DNA from: Melghirimyces profundicolus
Lineage (GTDB): Bacteria; Bacillota; Bacilli; Thermoactinomycetales; DSM-45169
Length of the DNA: 64,000 bases
Assembly (NCBI RefSeq): GCF_003054245.1
Contig: NZ_QBKR01000010.1
Coordinates: 1 to 64,000 of the forward strand
Direction of reading: 5' to 3'
In this document: one piece after another, positions 7,719-55,935 of the stretch
Position numbering within the stretch: position 1 is the first letter of the stretch
How the letters are laid out: each line of letters begins with the position of its first letter
Translations under genes and position numbers: made by a program
Notes under the pieces: model-generated
The model's input: the letters and a program-made list of their open reading frames with translations, nothing else
Told to the model about the DNA's origin: nothing
Databases searched by the model: none

Positions 7719-9299
7719 TTACAGATCGATCGCCGTCACATTTTGGATTTCGTCCAGTTCCTCCAAGGTTTTCAGCAATTCCTCGGAGATCGGTTTGTCC
7801 ACATGGAGCATCATGATGGCCCGGCCGCCGATATCTTTCCGTCCCACCTGCATGGTGGCGATATTGACATCGTGGTTGCCCAGAATGGTGCCCACCCGGC
7901 CGATGGCGCCAGGGCGGTCGTGGTGATGGATCAGGAGCAGATGACCGTCGGGCTGGACATCCACCGAATATTGGTCGATTTTGACGATCCGGGGTCCCAG
8001 GCCGTTCAACAGAGTGCCGGAGACCAGGGTCTCTTTCGCGTCGGTCCGGATTCCCACATGGATCAGGTGGGTGAAGCCGTGACTGCGGGAGACTTTCTGT
8101 TCGGTCACTTTCACGCCCCGTTCCCGTGCCAGATAGGGGGCGCTGACATAGTTGACGTCGGACAGGTAGTGGGAAAGAGCGCCCTTGAGGATGATCCGGC
8201 TGAGGGGGGCGGTATCCATTTCGGTCAGCTCGCCGGAAACGGTGATTGTGATCTCTTCCAAAGCTCCCTCGGCCGTCTGAATGGCGAACCGGCCCAGTTT
8301 TTCCGCCAGTGTTTGATAGGGGCGCAGCTTTTCCTGGAGTTCCGCCGGAATGGACGGGAGATTGACCGCGTTTTTAAAGGGTTCATCTCTCAGGATATGA
8401 AGAATTTCTTCGGATACGTCCACGGCTACATTCTGCTGGGCTTCCCGGGTGGAAGCGCCCAGGTGAGGGGTGGCGATCACCTGGGGCAGCGAGAAGAGCG
8501 GGTGTTGACCCGGCGGTTCCGTCTCGAATACATCGAGGGCGGCCCCGGCGACTTTTCCGGTTTGGATGGCGTCATAGAGCGCCCTTTCGTCAATGATTCC
8601 TCCCCGGGCGCAGTTGAGCACGCGAACTCCGTCCTTCATTCGGGCGAAAGCGCCGGCATCGATCAGGTGCCGCGTTTCCTTGGTGAGCGGGGTATGGACC
8701 GTGATGAAGTCGGAGCTGCGGATCACTTCGTCCATGGTGGCTTTACGGACCCCGACCTTCTCCGCCCGTTCTTCGGTCAGGTAGGGATCAAAGGCCACCA
8801 CGTTCATGTGGAATGCCCGGGCCCGCTTGGCCAGCTCTGCCCCGATTCGGCCGAGACCGAGGATGCCCAGGGTTTTGTTGTTCAGCTCCACGCCGACGTA
8901 GTCTTTTCGTTTCCATTCTCCCCGGATGATCGACTGGTAGCTTTGAGGAATGTTCCGGGCGAGGGAGATCAGCATGGCAAAGGTATGCTCCGCGGTGGAG
9001 ATCGTGTTGCCGTCGGGGGCGTTGACCACGACGATCCCGCGGGCTGTGGCAGCGGGGACATCGATGTTGTCCACGCCGACTCCGGCCCGGCCGATCGCTT
9101 TCAGCTTGCGGGCCGCCTGGATCACATCCGCAGTCACCTGGGTCTGACTGCGGACGATCAAGGCATCGGCGTCGGCGACTTCAACCAGCAGTTCTTCTTT
9201 TTTCAGATCCGTTTTTTGGACCACTTCCACATCCGGGGCATTTAACAATTGTTCAGTTCCCTGTCTGCTTAACGGATCGGTGATCAGCACGCGAAACAC
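7719..9299 (-). CDS. serA: D-3-phosphoglycerate dehydrogenase
   Basis: 526 residues, close to the 525 of B. subtilis SerA. It oxidises 3-phosphoglycerate to 3-phosphohydroxypyruvate, the first step of serine synthesis. Substrate-binding and NAD domains (GLGRIGAELA, then CARGGIIDE and the HLGASTREAQ active-site stretch) are followed by an intervening domain and a C-terminal ACT domain (DRPGAIGRVGTIL) for serine feedback. The GTG at 9299 follows GGAGGAGG with about 9 nt spacing. Its first 47 bases overlap the end of the upstream aminotransferase gene, and both lie behind the T-box leader. Confidence 0.94.
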   Translation of the reverse strand: MFRVLITDPLSRQGTEQLLNAPDVEVVQKTDLKKEELLVEVADADALIVRSQTQVTADVIQAARKLKAIGRAGVGVDNIDVPAATARGIVVVNAPDGNTISTAEHTFAMLISLARNIPQSYQSIIRGEWKRKDYVGVELNNKTLGILGLGRIGAELAKRARAFHMNVVAFDPYLTEERAEKVGVRKATMDEVIRSSDFITVHTPLTKETRHLIDAGAFARMKDGVRVLNCARGGIIDERALYDAIQTGKVAGAALDVFETEPPGQHPLFSLPQVIATPHLGASTREAQQNVAVDVSEEILHILRDEPFKNAVNLPSIPAELQEKLRPYQTLAEKLGRFAIQTAEGALEEITITVSGELTEMDTAPLSRIILKGALSHYLSDVNYVSAPYLARERGVKVTEQKVSRSHGFTHLIHVGIRTDAKETLVSGTLLNGLGPRIVKIDQYSVDVQPDGHLLLIHHHDRPGAIGRVGTILGNHDVNIATMQVGRKDIGGRAIMMLHVDKPISEELLKTLEELDEIQNVTAIDL

Positions 9300-10440
9300 G
9301 AATCCATTCCTCCTCCGCTGCTTGGGTTCCGGCTCCGGTCTCCACCGGAGCACCGATGCGGGCCAGCGCCACTTCCAATGCCGACAGGGTGGTCAGCACA
9401 TCCAAGGGATCGGCGTAGCCCATGTGTCCGATCCGGAAGATCTTTCCCTTCAGGTGCTGTTGTCCGCCGGCGACCCGAAGACCCAGACGGCGCAATTCTT
9501 TCCGGAGGTCTTCGGAGGACCAGGTCTTTCCGCCCTTCACGGCGGTCACGGTGGGAGAGGCATCCCGGTCTTCGGTCAGGAGTTCCAGGTCGAGAGCCCG
9601 GATGCCGGCCCGGGTCATTTCCATCATCAGACGGTGACGGGAAAAGACGGTTTCCATCCCTTCTTCATCCAGCATGTCGAGAACTTCTTTCAGACCGAAC
9701 AACAGGGAAACCGCCGGCGTGTTGGGGGTGGTGTCCTTCTCCAGGCTCTTTCGATAGTTGGAAAGGTCCAGGTAGAAGCGGGGGTGCGGATTGGTTTCCA
9801 TCGCATTCCAGGCCCGGTCGCTCACCGCCGCGAAGGCGAGTCCGGGAGGGAGCATAAGGGCTTTTTGCGAGCCGGCTACGAGGATATCGATCCCCCATCT
9901 GTCGGCTTCGGCGGGGACGCCACCCACGCAACTGACCCCGTCCACGACGGTGAGCGCCTGTGTCCGTTCCCGCACCCGCCCGACCAATTCGCGGATGGGG
10001 TTGAGCACGCCGGTCGACGTTTCGCAAAACGTGAGGAAGACGGCTTTCACCCGGGGATGTTGTTCCAGAAATGCGTCCAGTTGCTCCGGATGGCAGGCCT
10101 TTCCCCATTCGACATCCAACCGGTGAACCTTCACCCGCATGGAATTCAAGATGTTGGCGAAGCGGTCGCCGAAGGCGCCGGTGACCACCACCGCTGCTTC
10201 TTCTCCCTCGGCAAGAAGATTGGCGGCGGCCGCTTCCAGGGCGGAGGTGCCGCTTCCCGTCAAGAGCAGAACGGGGTTTTGGGTGCCGAAGACGGGACCG
10301 AGGCGGCGGCTGACTTCCCGAACCAGTCGGGAACAGTCGGGATCACGGTGACCGATCATCGGGCGGGACATGGCGAGCTGCACCCGGGGCGGGATGGGGG
10401 TCGGCCCCGGGATCTGAAGACGGTATTTGTCTTTTAGCAT
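9253..10440 (-). CDS. Class V aminotransferase (alanine-glyoxylate/serine-pyruvate type), likely the serine-pathway transaminase
   Basis: 395 residues, PLP-dependent class V fold. GSQKALMLPPG contains the expected PLP lysine K193; the substrate-loop start PGPTPIPP and the SGTSALEA cofactor region match alanine-glyoxylate/serine-pyruvate-type enzymes rather than classical SerC. Because it lies in one operon with serA behind a T-box, it probably converts 3-phosphohydroxypyruvate to phosphoserine, as has been proposed for similar serA-linked enzymes; this is inference from context. A purine-catabolic or glyoxylate transaminase is the alternative. Its 3' end overlaps the serA start by 47 bases. 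ATG 10440 is preceded by AAAGGAGG. Confidence 0.85.
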   Translation of the reverse strand: MLKDKYRLQIPGPTPIPPRVQLAMSRPMIGHRDPDCSRLVREVSRRLGPVFGTQNPVLLLTGSGTSALEAAAANLLAEGEEAAVVVTGAFGDRFANILNSMRVKVHRLDVEWGKACHPEQLDAFLEQHPRVKAVFLTFCETSTGVLNPIRELVGRVRERTQALTVVDGVSCVGGVPAEADRWGIDILVAGSQKALMLPPGLAFAAVSDRAWNAMETNPHPRFYLDLSNYRKSLEKDTTPNTPAVSLLFGLKEVLDMLDEEGMETVFSRHRLMMEMTRAGIRALDLELLTEDRDASPTVTAVKGGKTWSSEDLRKELRRLGLRVAGGQQHLKGKIFRIGHMGYADPLDVLTTLSALEVALARIGAPVETGAGTQAAEEEWIRVSRADHRSVKQTGN

Positions 10441-15802: not shown

Positions 15803-16061
15803 TCTCCGTTACGGGAGGAAACCTGATGGGGATTTTGCCACTTTCACAGGGGGATGAATGAAACGGGAATCCGGCTGGAAAGCCCAGGGTTCTTTTTTTA
15901 TATAACCTCTGTGCCCCTGATGATGGAGAGATGCACGGAACGGGAAGTTTGTGTATGATGAAGTGGGAGAAGACAAAGAAAAGGGGACCTGACCGCGTAA
16001 CGATCGATGCCTCACCCTCATACGTTGTATTGTGCGGGTCTCCAGCGAGGGAGGGTAAACC

Positions 16062-16655
16062 ATGCGTGTCGAGCGACTCAGCCGAGACAAAATCCGCTTT
16101 TACTTATCCATGGACGATTTGATGGAGCGGGGAATCGAAAAAGAGGACATGTGGCGGGACATCCCGAAAGTACATGAGCTGTTTAACGATATGATGGATC
16201 AGGCTTATCAGGAGCTTGGTTTTGAAATTTCCGGCCCCGTGGCCGTGGAGGTCTTTGCTCTGCCGGCGCAGGGAATGGTGGTCGTTGTCACGCGGGGCAG
16301 AACGCCTTCCCCCAGCGACTTGGATGAGCTGGATGGGGATGATATGTACGAATTGGAAGTAACTTTGGAAGAGAGCGACCAAGTTATTTTTCAGTTTCAG
16401 GATTTCGAGTATCTGGTGCAGGCTGCAAGGGATGTACAGCCTCTGATGGGCAACGCCGGCAGGGTGTACGCCTATCGTGACCGGTACTTTCTGGTCCTCG
16501 ACACCGATATGGAAACCGAGACCTTGCAACAGGGGATCGCTGTTCTGTCCGAGTTCGGAGAAGCTTCCACTGTGACCGAACATGTCCTTCAAGAATACGG
16601 GAAAACCATTTGGGACCAGGAAGCAGTCGGCGAAATTATCCGCTATTTTTCCTGA
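16062..16655 (+). CDS. mecA: MecA/YpbH-family ClpC adaptor protein
   Basis: 197 residues. The N-terminal domain MRVERLSRDKIRFYLS with the following KEDMWRDIP region, an acidic middle linker (about 85-105) and a C-terminal ClpC-binding domain ending in LQEYGKTI match MecA. These adaptors hand substrates to the ClpCP protease, for example competence or sporulation factors. In B. subtilis the paralogue ypbH lies in this chromosomal neighbourhood, so YpbH is equally possible as a name. ATG 16062 follows a GGAGGG site. A hairpin terminator follows. Confidence 0.87.
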   Translation: MRVERLSRDKIRFYLSMDDLMERGIEKEDMWRDIPKVHELFNDMMDQAYQELGFEISGPVAVEVFALPAQGMVVVVTRGRTPSPSDLDELDGDDMYELEVTLEESDQVIFQFQDFEYLVQAARDVQPLMGNAGRVYAYRDRYFLVLDTDMETETLQQGIAVLSEFGEASTVTEHVLQEYGKTIWDQEAVGEIIRYFS

Positions 16656-50799: not shown

Positions 50800-51903
50800 A
50801 TGAAAAAAGCAGCCGTATTGGGGACGGGTCTGATCGGCGGCTCCCTTGCCCTCTGCCTGAAGGAACGGACGGACATGGAAGTTCACGGTTATGATTCTTC
50901 GGCGGAGTCGGTTCGGTTGGCCGAAGCCTCCGGGGTGGTTCACCGGGGACACACAGAACTGGAGCCGGCCGTGGAGGGAGCGGACGTGATCTTTCTGGCG
51001 GTTCCCGTAGGGAGTGCCCCGGGGCTATTGGAATGGCTGGCGGGGCTTCCCCTGAAGCCTTCCTGCATTGTCAGCGATGTGGGGAGTACCAAGGGAAAAA
51101 TCGTGGAACACGCCGGCCGGCTTTCCCGTCTCGGGGCCACTTTCATCGGAGGGCATCCCATGGCCGGGTCCCATCGTTCCGGTGTGCAGGCGGCCAGTTC
51201 CCTCCTGTTTGAAAACGCCTATTATGTGCTCACCCCGATTCCAGCCACGCCGTTGTCCGAGGTTCAGAAACTGAGCCGCCTGCTGGAGAAGGCCACCCGT
51301 GCCCGACTGGTCATCATGGATCCGGCACATCATGACCGGGTGGTGGGAGCGATCAGTCACCTGCCCCATATTTTGGCGGCAGCCCTGGTCAATCAGGTGG
51401 CTGACTACAATGCTTCCAACGAATGGTTCCATCGCCTGGCGGCGGGAGGTTTCCGGGATCTGACCCGGGTGGCGGCAAGCGATCCGGTGATGTGGAGGGA
51501 TATCCTTCTCAGCAACCGGGAGGCGGTGCTGGACCTGTTGGAGGACTGGACCGAGGGGATGCGCCGGATCCGGGAAGCGGTTCACAACAGCGATGCCGGG
51601 CGGATCGAAGGGTTTTTCCGCCGGGCGAAGGAAGCCAGGGAAGGACTTCCGGAACGCCGGAAACCGGGAATGATCCCGCCCGCCCACGAAATTTACGTCG
51701 ACGTTCCCGACATTCCCGGAGAGATCGCCGGGGTGGCGCATCTTTTGGGGGAAGAGGGCATCAATCTGCGCAATATCGGGGTGATGGAAAATCGGGAGGA
51801 CCGGGCCGGTGTATTGCGGTTGGTTTTGAATACCGAAGAGGAGAGGGAAAAAGCGGAAAAACGGTTGAAAGCCGGAGGGTACCAGGTGTTCACCTCTGAA
51901 TGA
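50800..51903 (+). CDS. tyrA: Prephenate dehydrogenase with ACT domain
   Basis: 367 residues. It oxidatively decarboxylates prephenate to 4-hydroxyphenylpyruvate. Dinucleotide motif GTGLIGGS (8-15), the GGHPMAGSHRSG active-site loop and a C-terminal ACT domain from about 295 (EIYVDVPDIPGEIAGV) that probably senses tyrosine. The ribosome site is weak (GGCGGGA), so translation is probably coupled to hisC. Confidence 0.94.
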   Translation: MKKAAVLGTGLIGGSLALCLKERTDMEVHGYDSSAESVRLAEASGVVHRGHTELEPAVEGADVIFLAVPVGSAPGLLEWLAGLPLKPSCIVSDVGSTKGKIVEHAGRLSRLGATFIGGHPMAGSHRSGVQAASSLLFENAYYVLTPIPATPLSEVQKLSRLLEKATRARLVIMDPAHHDRVVGAISHLPHILAAALVNQVADYNASNEWFHRLAAGGFRDLTRVAASDPVMWRDILLSNREAVLDLLEDWTEGMRRIREAVHNSDAGRIEGFFRRAKEAREGLPERRKPGMIPPAHEIYVDVPDIPGEIAGVAHLLGEEGINLRNIGVMENREDRAGVLRLVLNTEEEREKAEKRLKAGGYQVFTSE

Positions 51904-51922
51904 TCCAATCGATTGAACCCAA

Positions 51923-52392
51923 GAAGCGTTGTGAAAAAGTGAGCGGCAGCAGTTACCCAAAGCCGCTCCGGCTGCACTCACAGAGCACAAGTCGCGCCTG
52001 GGGTCGCTGCACTCCCGGTCGCGCTATGCACTCACAGAGCACAAGTCGCGCCTGGGGTCGCTGCACTCCCGGTCGCGCTATGCACTCACAGAGCACAAGT
52101 CTCGCCTGGGTCGCTTGCACTCCCGGTCGCGCTATGCACTCACAGAGCACAAGTCTCGCCTGGGTCGCTTGCACTCCCCGGTCTCGCTATGCTGTCCTGC
52201 AGAGGTGGTTGCACTGTCCGCTCCGAATCATCCTGTTGCGGGCAGGGGCAAACGCCTTCGGATGCAACACAGAGAAGCTTTTATCCCTGAACGCCCATGC
52301 AGGCTGATTCTCCGCTGGGCAGGACAGCAAAGTCGCTATTTTGGGTAAACGCTTCCCCTTTTCTCGAAACGAACATGAAATCACATCACTTC
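51923..52392 (+). repeat. Dispersed palindromic repeat element, copy 3 (470 bp)
   Basis: Longest of the three copies, same orientation; left end GAAGCGTTGTGA (51923-51934), right end decayed to TCACATCACTTC (52381-52392). AA lies on both sides within CAA...AAG. It is 108 bp longer than copy 1, exactly two extra 54-bp units. It sits in the tyrA-aroA intergenic region; removing it with one AA would leave a short spacer carrying the aroA site AAGGGAGG. Confidence 0.9.
51977..52192 (+). repeat. Tandem array of four 54-bp units inside copy 3
   Basis: Units start at 51977, 52031, 52085 and 52139. Each begins CTCACAGAGCACAAGTC and ends with GCTATGC(A). Units 1 and 2 are identical; 3 and 4 diverge slightly. 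Because 54 is a multiple of three, false open frames run through the array. Confidence 0.93.
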
Positions 52393-53691: not shown

Positions 53692-53728
53692 AAGAAGACA
53701 GTTGAATCAGAATATTGTAAATATGCTG

Positions 53729-53757
53729 TTGACACCAGCGGTTTGCTTGCTTATACT
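53729..53757 (+). promoter_or_regulatory. Strong sigma-A promoter after aroA
   Basis: TTGACA (53729-53734), 17-bp spacer, TATACT (53752-53757). Transcription would start near 53764. Confidence 0.85.
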
Positions 53758-53763
53758 AAATGC

Positions 53764-53837
53764 ATAGTATGGTTTCTCTCCACTCCTATCCATTATGGCA
53801 CATTGGTGCAACCGCCCGGAACGGGCGGTTCTTTTTT
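53764..53837 (+). ncRNA. Possible short transcript or attenuator leader
   Basis: About 70 nt between a consensus promoter and a terminator AACCGCCCG/CGGGCGGTT (53810-53818, 53822-53830) with a run of T residues. GCACATTGGTGC just before it can form a small hairpin. No convincing peptide. It could be an independent small RNA, or a leader that attenuates the gene at 53878. Confidence 0.5.
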
Positions 53838-53877
53838 TGTCCAACCTGTCATAAGCGTAACAACAGGGGGGAGGATT

Positions 53878-54420
53878 ATGAGGGGAAGAGCCGCAAGATT
53901 GGCCATGGAGATGGGTTTCGTGTTGGCGTCGGTCGCCGCACTGAAAGAGTGGGTGTTTCCCTTCTTCATCTGGCAGTGGTTTCCCGCTGCAGATACCGCT
54001 TCTGCGATGTTGGAGTGGATCCTGATCGTGGTGGGAGTGATCACCTGTTTTCTGTATCTCGGCTTGGGGTCTTCCTCCAAATACATATACGGGCTTGCGC
54101 CGGTGTCTTCACTGGGGGTGTTTTTGGCTGTCCATCTTCCCCTGCTTCTGCCGCTTCTTCTGAGGGAGAATTCCCATGCCTGGTGGTGGCATCGAATCCC
54201 GGCCGCCTGGGGAGCGTTGATCGGGGACGGGGTGGAGCTGTTCACCCCCGACCGGTGGGAAATGGATCCTCTGTCCGTCTCCGCTTTTTCCTGCCTGTTG
54301 TTCCTGATGGGAAGGTGGGTCAAGGTGGAGGGGGAAGAACGGGTCCGAAGAATCGGAACGCCCCGGGGCGGTTGGCCGGATCCGGACCGGAAAACCTTTG
54401 GGAAGGATTCGGCCCCGTGA
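53878..54420 (+). CDS. Hypothetical membrane protein
   Basis: 180 residues with three or four hydrophobic segments (about 10-25, 45-65, 70-95, 130-150) and a basic C-terminal tail. ATG 53878 has GGGGGGAGG upstream. It lies behind the promoter and terminator at 53729-53837. Not recognised, and no counterpart at this position in B. subtilis. Confidence 0.65.
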   Translation: MRGRAARLAMEMGFVLASVAALKEWVFPFFIWQWFPAADTASAMLEWILIVVGVITCFLYLGLGSSSKYIYGLAPVSSLGVFLAVHLPLLLPLLLRENSHAWWWHRIPAAWGALIGDGVELFTPDRWEMDPLSVSAFSCLLFLMGRWVKVEGEERVRRIGTPRGGWPDPDRKTFGKDSAP

Positions 54421-54694: not shown

Positions 54695-54716
54695 AAACAA
54701 GTTTGCAAAGCAAACA
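54695..54716 (+). repeat. 22-bp intergenic palindromic motif, copy B
   Basis: AAACAAGTTTGCAAAGCAAA plus CA: GTTTGC faces GCAAAC. It matches the site at 60074 in 20 of 22 positions. It lies 89 bp before the unknown gene at 54805. Confidence 0.55.
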
Positions 54717-54804
54717 TAGTGCGATTGCATGTATGCAAAGCTTACCAATCAGCCATGCTAAGGACAGGAAAAGGTTTGGAGCGGAAAATGAGGGGCTTTT
54801 CGAA

Positions 54805-55935
54805 ATGAATTTTGCCGATCTGCTTACCTATGCGGACATTGATCATTTAAAACGAATGGCGTTTCATTACGGATGCGGGGGAGATGATCACTCCAAGAAC
54901 GGGCTGATCACCTCGCTCCTGTATCACCTGGGAGGCTCTTCCCGGCTGAAAGGGGAGATGGAATGCCTTGACTCCGCCGAATTTCGATTCCTTCAGCAGC
55001 TCTTTTTCGATTCCCGCAGCGTATTCAGCCGGGAAGAGTTGCTGGGCAAAGGGCGGGTATCCTTGACCTGCGACGATGAAGAGTCTCCCCGGGACCTGGT
55101 GATTCTCGGTCTCCGGAAGGGTTGGCTTTTTCCCGGGGTTTCCGGGAAAAACAAAACGTTTTTCGAGATTCCCGATGATCTCCGGCGCCGATTCCTGAAG
55201 CTTTTCGCCGAGAAATACGGCGGCGGATCGGAAGAGCCGGTGCCCGCCGCCTATCGGAACGAAGAAGGCCTGTTGGCAGAAGACTTGGGTCTTTTTCTCC
55301 GTTTTCTTGCCCGGCAGGATGTATCCTTGACCATGGACGGGGCCATTTACCGTCAGCAGCAAAAACAGATCCTCAAGTGTTTTCACGTGTCGGAGGAACC
55401 CGTTTCCGGCAAGGGGTGGCGTTTCGGCTTTGGGAGACGCTACCATCAGTACCCCGACCGGTTTTCACTGTTGTATGACTATGCCTTTTACCAGGGGTAC
55501 ATCGTGGAAGACCAAATGGAGGGGTCTTTGCGTTTAAGCGAGGCGGGAGCGGGGAAAGTGGGTGAGCAAAAGCGGGAAAAGGAGGGAGAAATCTATCGTT
55601 TCTGGCTCCGGTTGTACCGCCGGCCGATCCCCCATCTCACCATCATTGTCAAGTGGATCGATCTCTTGTGCCATCAGCGGTGGCAACGGGCAGAAACCGT
55701 GGAAAAAGTGGTGCGTCACTGGATCCAACCTTTTTACTATGAATCCGGGGCAGACCTCTTCCGTCGCATCCTCCGCATGCTGATGCATCTGGGTTTTTTG
55801 TGCATCGGAGAAACGGAATCCAGGGACGTTCTCATCCGGATGAACCCGTCGGGGCATGCCCGGATTGCCGGCATTTCCGGTTTCACCGAGGACAACCTCT
55901 CTTCCGAGTACACGGATGTTTACGGGGTTCAATAA
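54805..55935 (+). CDS. Hypothetical 376-residue protein
   Basis: 376 residues, soluble, charged. The N-terminal 45 residues (ADIDHLKRMAFHYGC, then KNGLITSLLYHLG) have the look of a helix-bundle or SAP-like DNA-binding module, and several winged-helix-like segments may follow, but I recognise no family with confidence. ATG 54805 has GAGGGG about 10 nt upstream; an in-frame ATG at 54733 has no site. It takes the position of the TPR gene ypiA of B. subtilis but does not resemble it. Confidence 0.7.
   Translation: MNFADLLTYADIDHLKRMAFHYGCGGDDHSKNGLITSLLYHLGGSSRLKGEMECLDSAEFRFLQQLFFDSRSVFSREELLGKGRVSLTCDDEESPRDLVILGLRKGWLFPGVSGKNKTFFEIPDDLRRRFLKLFAEKYGGGSEEPVPAAYRNEEGLLAEDLGLFLRFLARQDVSLTMDGAIYRQQQKQILKCFHVSEEPVSGKGWRFGFGRRYHQYPDRFSLLYDYAFYQGYIVEDQMEGSLRLSEAGAGKVGEQKREKEGEIYRFWLRLYRRPIPHLTIIVKWIDLLCHQRWQRAETVEKVVRHWIQPFYYESGADLFRRILRMLMHLGFLCIGETESRDVLIRMNPSGHARIAGISGFTEDNLSSEYTDVYGVQ

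Follow-up and report, generated by a model that had tools for sequence, protein, structure and literature searches.

A conserved, probable small RNA gene beside aroA in the Bacilli, predicted to pair with ribosome-binding sites

Bacterial small RNAs (sRNAs) usually drift fast. RsaI (RsaOG) of Staphylococcus aureus, one of the described sRNAs with which the present locus can be compared, is repressed by CcpA, carries unpaired C/U-rich regions and is ∼144 nt long. According to PMC8464778, RsaI has been proposed to act as a sponge of RsaE. In the same source, RsaE/RoxS (RF01820) is a short stand-alone sRNA of the Bacilli that uses C-rich unpaired regions on its target mRNAs; Rex/ResD control is recorded for RoxS, and acsA figures among the RoxS targets of Bacillus subtilis. 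The B. subtilis RNA FsrA is described there as 84 nt long, with a C-rich region for which pairing with ribosome-binding sites has been proposed, and two further sRNAs of that species, SR1 and RosA, are tied to carbon control by CcpA, SR1 also to CcpN (PMC8464778). Here we describe a locus downstream of aroA which, judged by sequence comparison, most likely represents a new sRNA family of the trans-acting kind that pairs with ribosome-binding sites; the family is absent from Rfam 15, and is notable for the depth of its conservation and its mostly fixed place. We put the probability of the whole proposal, that is, a stand-alone trans-acting sRNA of ∼75 nt that would pair with ribosome-binding sites and have an aminotransferase–serA operon and a MecA-family gene as its best targets, at roughly 0.7.

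A preliminary description of the window (the whole stretch of 64,000 nt from Melghirimyces profundicolus that was analysed) had drawn attention to a consensus promoter with 17-bp spacing, a strong terminator shortly after it and then a gene of an unidentified family. All three are borne out (Table 1). The promoter agrees with the consensus at 11 of 12 bases (−35 box TTGACA at 53729–53734, 17-bp spacer, −10 box TATACT at 53752–53757), 52 nt lie between the end of the −10 box and the terminator stem, and the membrane-type gene that follows has no Pfam match. By itself, the promoter–terminator pattern is weak proof, because the counts in a 6-kb scan of both strands were not clearly above chance: three promoter-like matches were found against 2.1 expected, and ten terminator-like matches against 7.8. 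When both strands of the whole window were scanned with stricter thresholds, four promoters scored at least 11/12, and the only one with a strong terminator within 120 nt was that at 53729–53838. The decisive evidence for a promoter–terminator unit is comparative, namely the retention of promoter, core and terminator in relatives. RNA polymerase would start at this promoter and stop at the terminator, as judged from the sequence and its conservation. In the predicted RNA (fold z −2.4), a 5′ part with little structure precedes a hairpin of 4 bp and the terminator. A covariance model matched it with an E value of 5.1e-18, the window copy itself being in the training set, and a search of Rfam 15 at the locus returned no family at its gathering score, the best weak match having an E value of 0.095.

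Table 1. Features of the sRNA locus and predicted target sites (positions in the window)
Feature	Position	Strand	Basis
Sigma-A type promoter, TTGACA-17-TATACT	53729..53757	+	Sequence scans; promoter of at least 9/12 in 128/132 fetched copies
Small RNA gene, predicted 75-nt transcript	53764..53838	+	Start inferred near 53764; covariance model, fold z −2.4
Near-invariant CU-rich core AUAGUAUGGUUUCUCUCCACUCCUAUCCA, mostly unpaired, presumed seed	53764..53792	+	Conservation and folds
Small hairpin GCAC..GUGC, sequence variable	53798..53809	+	Predicted folds
Intrinsic terminator AACCGCCCGGAACGGGCGGTT-CTTTTTTT	53810..53838	+	9 pairs, 7 of them G-C; stem covaries between families
A-rich UP-like element, AATCAGAAAATTT-type, upstream of −35	53705..53722	+	Conservation, 30 order-level copies
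Membrane-type gene downstream, separate from the RNA	53878..54420	+	Homolog in 10/10 family genomes
Predicted target: class V aminotransferase gene (9253-10440; upstream of serA, 7719-9299), at its ribosome-binding site and start codon	10434..10469	−	Duplex −32.9 kcal/mol
Second predicted target: ribosome-binding site of MecA-family gene (16062-16652)	16035..16066	+	Duplex −30.0

The 53764–53809 stretch, whose conservation had been named as a check, is near letter-identical across relatives in its core, while the sequence of the small hairpin varies. All ten genomes of the family (seven of seven genera) contain DNA that matches the 189-bp intergenic stretch, flanked by aroA on one side and a homolog of the membrane-type gene on the other. 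Eight of nine relatives share the 27-nt core without a change, and the ninth retains 26 of its 27 letters; third-codon positions of aroA are 35–47% identical in this comparison, which rests also on the whole-intergenic and synteny matches. Over 30 order-level copies, mean per-position identity is 99% in the core against 46% in the flanks. The UP-like element, 50–60 nt before the core, is 70–96% conserved (with a dip to 40–56%) against ∼46% for the flanks in the same copies. Of 42 genomes of the order, 31 hold a single copy of the core pattern when up to three mismatches are allowed, and none matches the reversed control pattern. One family member (G006, locus L098) keeps core and terminator with no recognisable promoter before the core; an inverted repeat, CCCACAGCGAAA...TTTCGCTGTGGG, stands directly before the core there and is perhaps an insertion.

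The same core pattern, again with up to three mismatches, occurs in 142 of 398 genomes of the class (58 of 146 genera), with two copies only in G262 and no match to the reversed pattern; we take the class to be Bacilli, and the order appears akin to Thermoactinomycetales. The covariance model, which was built from 65 copies, many of them from genomes also searched, detects the RNA in 208 of the 398 genomes and 93 of the 146 genera (193 genomes at E ≤ 1e-4). Alignment A1 holds 65 of 104 extracted copies, leaving out the changed-core loci L167 and L182, and the invariance of its core is partly a matter of selection, because the copies were found via the core. Both variants are included among the 132 fetched copies (31 families), of which 126 contain the 14-mer TTTCTCTCCACTCC exactly and six with one to three changes. 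Weaker model matches in further families lie downstream of aroA or tyrA, with TTTCTCTCCACTCC nearly unaltered. Scopulibacillus daqui is a carrier (L004), and no core was found at the loci fetched from Rossellomorea, Sporolactobacillus and Terrilactibacillus (L002, L005, L017, L029). The weak model matches L343–L345, L347 and L351 were rejected as true copies; they are without synteny and look like chance. In a sample of the phylum, a shorter pattern with up to two mismatches matched seven of 398 genomes, all among the 16 of the same class and none among the 382 others. A mobile origin was likewise rejected: the exact 20-mer core occurs in no viral contig, there was no phage match, and four plasmids match 29 nt, in the terminator part only. 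The literature searched, which most subscription papers lie outside, contains none of six core strings and no description of an aroA-adjacent sRNA. PMC5670726 reports 27 intergenic small RNAs in Paenibacillus riograndensis, three of them annotated, and this sRNA may be listed, unnamed, in the supplementary tables of that paper.

A promoter scoring at least 9/12 lies within 85 nt upstream of the core in 128 of the 132 copies; loci L109, L110 and L187 reach 8/12. The distance from the end of the −10 box to TTTCTC is 14–16 nt in 86 of the 128 promoter-bearing copies and mostly 21–29 nt in the rest. The promoter is followed by the core, which is mostly unpaired, in some copies by a small hairpin, and by the terminator; besides these two stems, the consensus folds have a single pairing, of 3 bp, within the core. 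The letters of the hairpin vary between copies and its pairing persists; in the terminator, all four predicted pairs in A1, and two of 13 pairs in the order-level alignment, have changed on both sides. The locus thus has what is looked for in a base-pairing sRNA, its own promoter and intrinsic terminator, and a conserved unpaired seed on a variable scaffold. In three copies from families f24 and f35 (L158 and L159, and in shorter form L162) the promoter spacer holds GGAGTGGAGAG, the reverse complement of CTCTCCACTCC in the core, so that a DNA inverted repeat surrounds the start site.

In most copies seen, an ATG, or a GTG or TTG, opens the core, as it would if the RNA were a very short, nearly leaderless coding RNA (ATG GTT TCT CTC CAC TCC TAT CC, MVSLHSYP) or encoded a leader peptide. 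Against this, the changes in variant cores are, by eye, mostly non-synonymous, the copies share no common stop codon, and the ATG is lost in the paralogs L191–L193. The MVSLHSYP peptide was rejected on these grounds, and we regard any coding function of this kind as very improbable. The 5′ end of the same three paralogs differs in that TTCAGG replaces TATGG.

The upstream neighbourhood is largely fixed. In 112 of the 132 copies a same-strand homolog of aroA (83 copies), tyrA (24) or hisC (5) ends no more than 700 nt upstream, and the other 20 include paralogs and loci with those genes on the other strand. Of the three genes in the window, aroA and hisC score above their NCBIfam cut-offs, and tyrA falls 1.2 bits short of one. 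Between tyrA and aroA, at 51900–52300, there are repeats, seen as an ORF with repeated HSQSTSRAWGRCTPGRAM.

Downstream, the picture bears on whether the RNA is a gene of its own, or the leader of the membrane-type gene, acting as an attenuator or protein-sensing element in which a terminator/antiterminator switch governs read-through. Consistent with a leader, a homolog of the membrane-type gene is found in all ten family genomes, and it lies within 250 nt after the core in 32 copies from the window's own order. The total for all 132 copies is only 33, however: outside the order a single fetched copy (family f25) has this gene so close, and in other families other genes follow. A homolog of the window ORF at 54703–55935 follows the core in 37 copies; its reading as a TPR protein was dropped, no Pfam or NCBIfam family passing its cut-off. 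Some copies have ReoY (ypiB) and qcr genes downstream (QcrB being a cytochrome b6 by profile match, QcrA putative), and further downstream the genes differ again, among them a sigma-70-family factor, an HTH-cupin protein, an amidohydrolase and a TPR protein. Family f32 has two paralogs, the tested loci lying beside an FGGY sugar kinase (L190) and between rpoN (sigma-54) and clpP (L193), and the latter position also argues against a leader, as does the terminator, whose letters vary while its stem covaries; in the consensus folds no antiterminator appeared. In addition, 27 of 30 order-level copies have a CATA motif 8–12 nt past the terminator (28 of the 30 within 45 nt; at 53850–53853 on the plus strand in the window), which suggests that the membrane-type gene has a separate promoter; we take the motif to be, possibly, the −10 element of a sporulation-type promoter.

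Of the two layouts that the preliminary description had offered, the small RNA gene thus gains strong support, because all three elements (core, promoter, terminator) are retained at loci with a different gene downstream, while the attenuated leader finds none in the consensus folds, the neighbours or the CATA motif and is, in our view, improbable. That 53764–53838 is a conserved RNA gene we regard as very probable.

Base pairing is the probable mode of action of this RNA. The 5′ core would be mostly single-stranded and would pair with the ribosome-binding sites of target mRNAs, chiefly by its GGUUUCUCUCC with GGAGAGAAACC next to the start codon, and, going by the complementarity, occupation of the site would block translation. 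The target scan of the window set the core against the ribosome-binding sites of 86 mechanical ORFs that are no shorter than 110 aa and have a Shine–Dalgarno sequence, and so covers genes near the sRNA only. The best duplex in the window was that with the class V aminotransferase, reached by none of 60 shuffled cores. Orthologs of this gene are present in nine of ten fetched relatives (none in the fetched stretch of G006). In eight of 11 aminotransferase start regions, the own genome and G094 included, no more than two of 200 shuffled cores pair as well; the pairing is weaker in G007 (seven of 200, middling), G005 (14) and G014 (23).

Ortholog groups were then compared in two separate sets. 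In the first set of relatives (own genome and G094 left out; 31 groups), the aminotransferase (z −5.0) and the MecA-family gene (z −4.6) led, with the next group at −2.8. In the second, of ten genomes from other families of the order (24 groups), they again led with z values of −4.1 and −4.4, followed by −2.6. None of 200 shuffled cores reached either group in either set. Low shuffle counts were also seen for +10886 (0/200, second set) and for +23900 and −20920 (1/200 each, first set). When 64 genomes were searched with the reverse complement of the core, 28 non-sRNA matches were obtained, against eight for the reversed pattern; these are heterogeneous and include acsA (G059), lysA and fabD by ORF reading, acsA being confirmed, as well as an aminotransferase ortholog in another family (G094). 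Among the matches listed (30 fetched), recurrence in the ten family genomes is confined to repeats within a genus, such as purE. The acsA (acetate–CoA ligase) start region in G059 (L201) differs from the reverse complement of the core by two mismatches in 20.

That the core does better than its shuffled versions on certain ortholog groups, whose ribosome-binding sites are complementary to it, also bears on a different use of the core, the binding of a protein (an RNA chaperone, or a ribosomal or RNA-polymerase factor) and not of mRNAs. More than 20 near-invariant nucleotides is long for seed pairing with several diverging targets, and would suit a protein-binding site; the core is mostly unstructured and CU-rich, however, and together with the ortholog groups this makes protein binding an unlikely alternative to pairing.

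A more serious doubt concerns the targets themselves. Since the core resembles the anti-Shine–Dalgarno sequence, some complementarity to ribosome-binding sites is expected, and core-complement patterns are enriched generally. The RNA may therefore be real and act by base pairing while the two predicted sites, in the serine operon and the MecA-family gene, arise as by-products of the purine richness of ribosome-binding sites, with the true targets elsewhere. The confinement of the target tests to genes near the sRNA leaves room for this, and the aminotransferase site is patchy in distant genomes, with strong pairing in three of nine genomes from other families of the order and weak pairing in six. 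The MecA-family start region (16017–16076, plus strand) is almost letter-identical across genera (GGGTCTCCAGCGAGGGAGGGTAAACCATGCGTGTCGAGCG), far past the pairing site, so something else may hold it too, and it may be a separate cis element. On the other hand, the two groups came first in each of two separate sets of genomes, tested against shuffled cores, and the aminotransferase recurred in the separate complement search. We consider the by-product explanation possible but the less convincing one. Even so, for the aminotransferase–serA operon and the MecA-family adaptor gene, the best predicted targets of the proposed sRNA, the sequence evidence leaves the odds about even.

Control of the sRNA itself may differ between families. 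A scan for the cre consensus of CcpA covered 98 copies, which are related to one another and do not represent 98 independent cases, with shuffles as controls. In the promoter zone, a perfect cre was found in 24 of the 98 copies (0.23% of shuffles) and a match at no fewer than nine of ten positions in 36 (2.7%). After the core, the corresponding numbers were 14 (0.10%) and 30 (4.4%). In a zone 300 nt downstream that served as control, no copy of the 98 had a match even at 9/10, and none of eight copies from the window's own family has a cre at nine or more of ten positions. The boxes stand at differing places in differing families. As the promoter-zone matches exceed the shuffles and are absent from the control zone, CcpA control of the sRNA is likely in the cre-bearing families, to which the window's family does not belong, and in those families the sRNA would accumulate once preferred sugars are exhausted. 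The paralogs L191–L193 all have a promoter-zone cre, at 10/10 positions in two and 9/10 in the third. Cre-like palindromes, e.g. TGTAAGCCCTTACA or TGAATGCGCTTACA, are also seen in the terminator loop of L154, L157–L159, L162 and many loci of family f27 (e.g. L138, L140, L144, L160, L163), where they could possibly be a roadblock or a second operator.

The enzyme encoded by serA draws 3-phosphoglycerate from glycolysis into serine. One can picture an ancestral carbon-status sRNA of the Bacilli, kept beside aroA across much of the class and replaced in other lineages by RsaE/RoxS, which on sugar shortage would shut the serA branch off 3-phosphoglycerate and trim a MecA-type protease adaptor. We offer this as a tentative scenario, and a doubtful one in its entirety; if it is true, serine synthesis and regulated proteolysis would both be tied to carbon supply. 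Both predicted targets, the serine operon and the MecA-family gene, are open to direct test.

The distribution of RsaE/RoxS is relevant here. Its model matches 117 of the 398 class genomes at E ≤ 0.01 (82 above cut-off), and none of the 193 carriers of the aroA-adjacent sRNA at E ≤ 1e-4, where 57 would be expected under independence; 88 genomes have neither. Both RNAs follow lineages, so that independent losses are few. Eight of 15 matches of our model at E values from 1e-4 to 0.01 sit in RsaE genomes, and the two inspected (L344, L345) look like chance. In the window's genome, which was covered in a 40-genome scan with stricter filters, the RsaE model had no match at E ≤ 0.01. The non-overlap offers a natural experiment in sRNA replacement. 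If the proposal is true, the aroA-adjacent sRNA, whose core keeps more than 20 nucleotides near-invariant across 31 groups of family rank, would rank with the most conserved base-pairing sRNAs of Gram-positive bacteria; this is our judgement and does not derive from a survey.

How, then, does this RNA compare with those described? SR1, at 205 nt, encodes a peptide, and RosA is a sponge with G-rich regions, whereas the aroA-adjacent sRNA is predicted to be ∼75 nt long and CU-rich, and no conserved ORF was seen in it. RsaI differs in structure and FsrA is Fur-controlled and iron-sparing, and our RNA has no Rfam match. The fetched RsaE copies hold CCCCTTTG-type motifs twice, which are absent from the aroA-adjacent sRNA, and homology of the core to RsaE finds no support in the alignment, which is no better than shuffles (the fraction of shuffles doing equally well was 0.08–0.24 for 11 of 12 copies and 0.84 for the remaining one). 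What the two have in common is the string TTTCTC-CCA-TCC in RsaE, as against TTTCTCTCCACTCC here, and a C-rich unpaired seed complementary to ribosome-binding sites, in our case by prediction.
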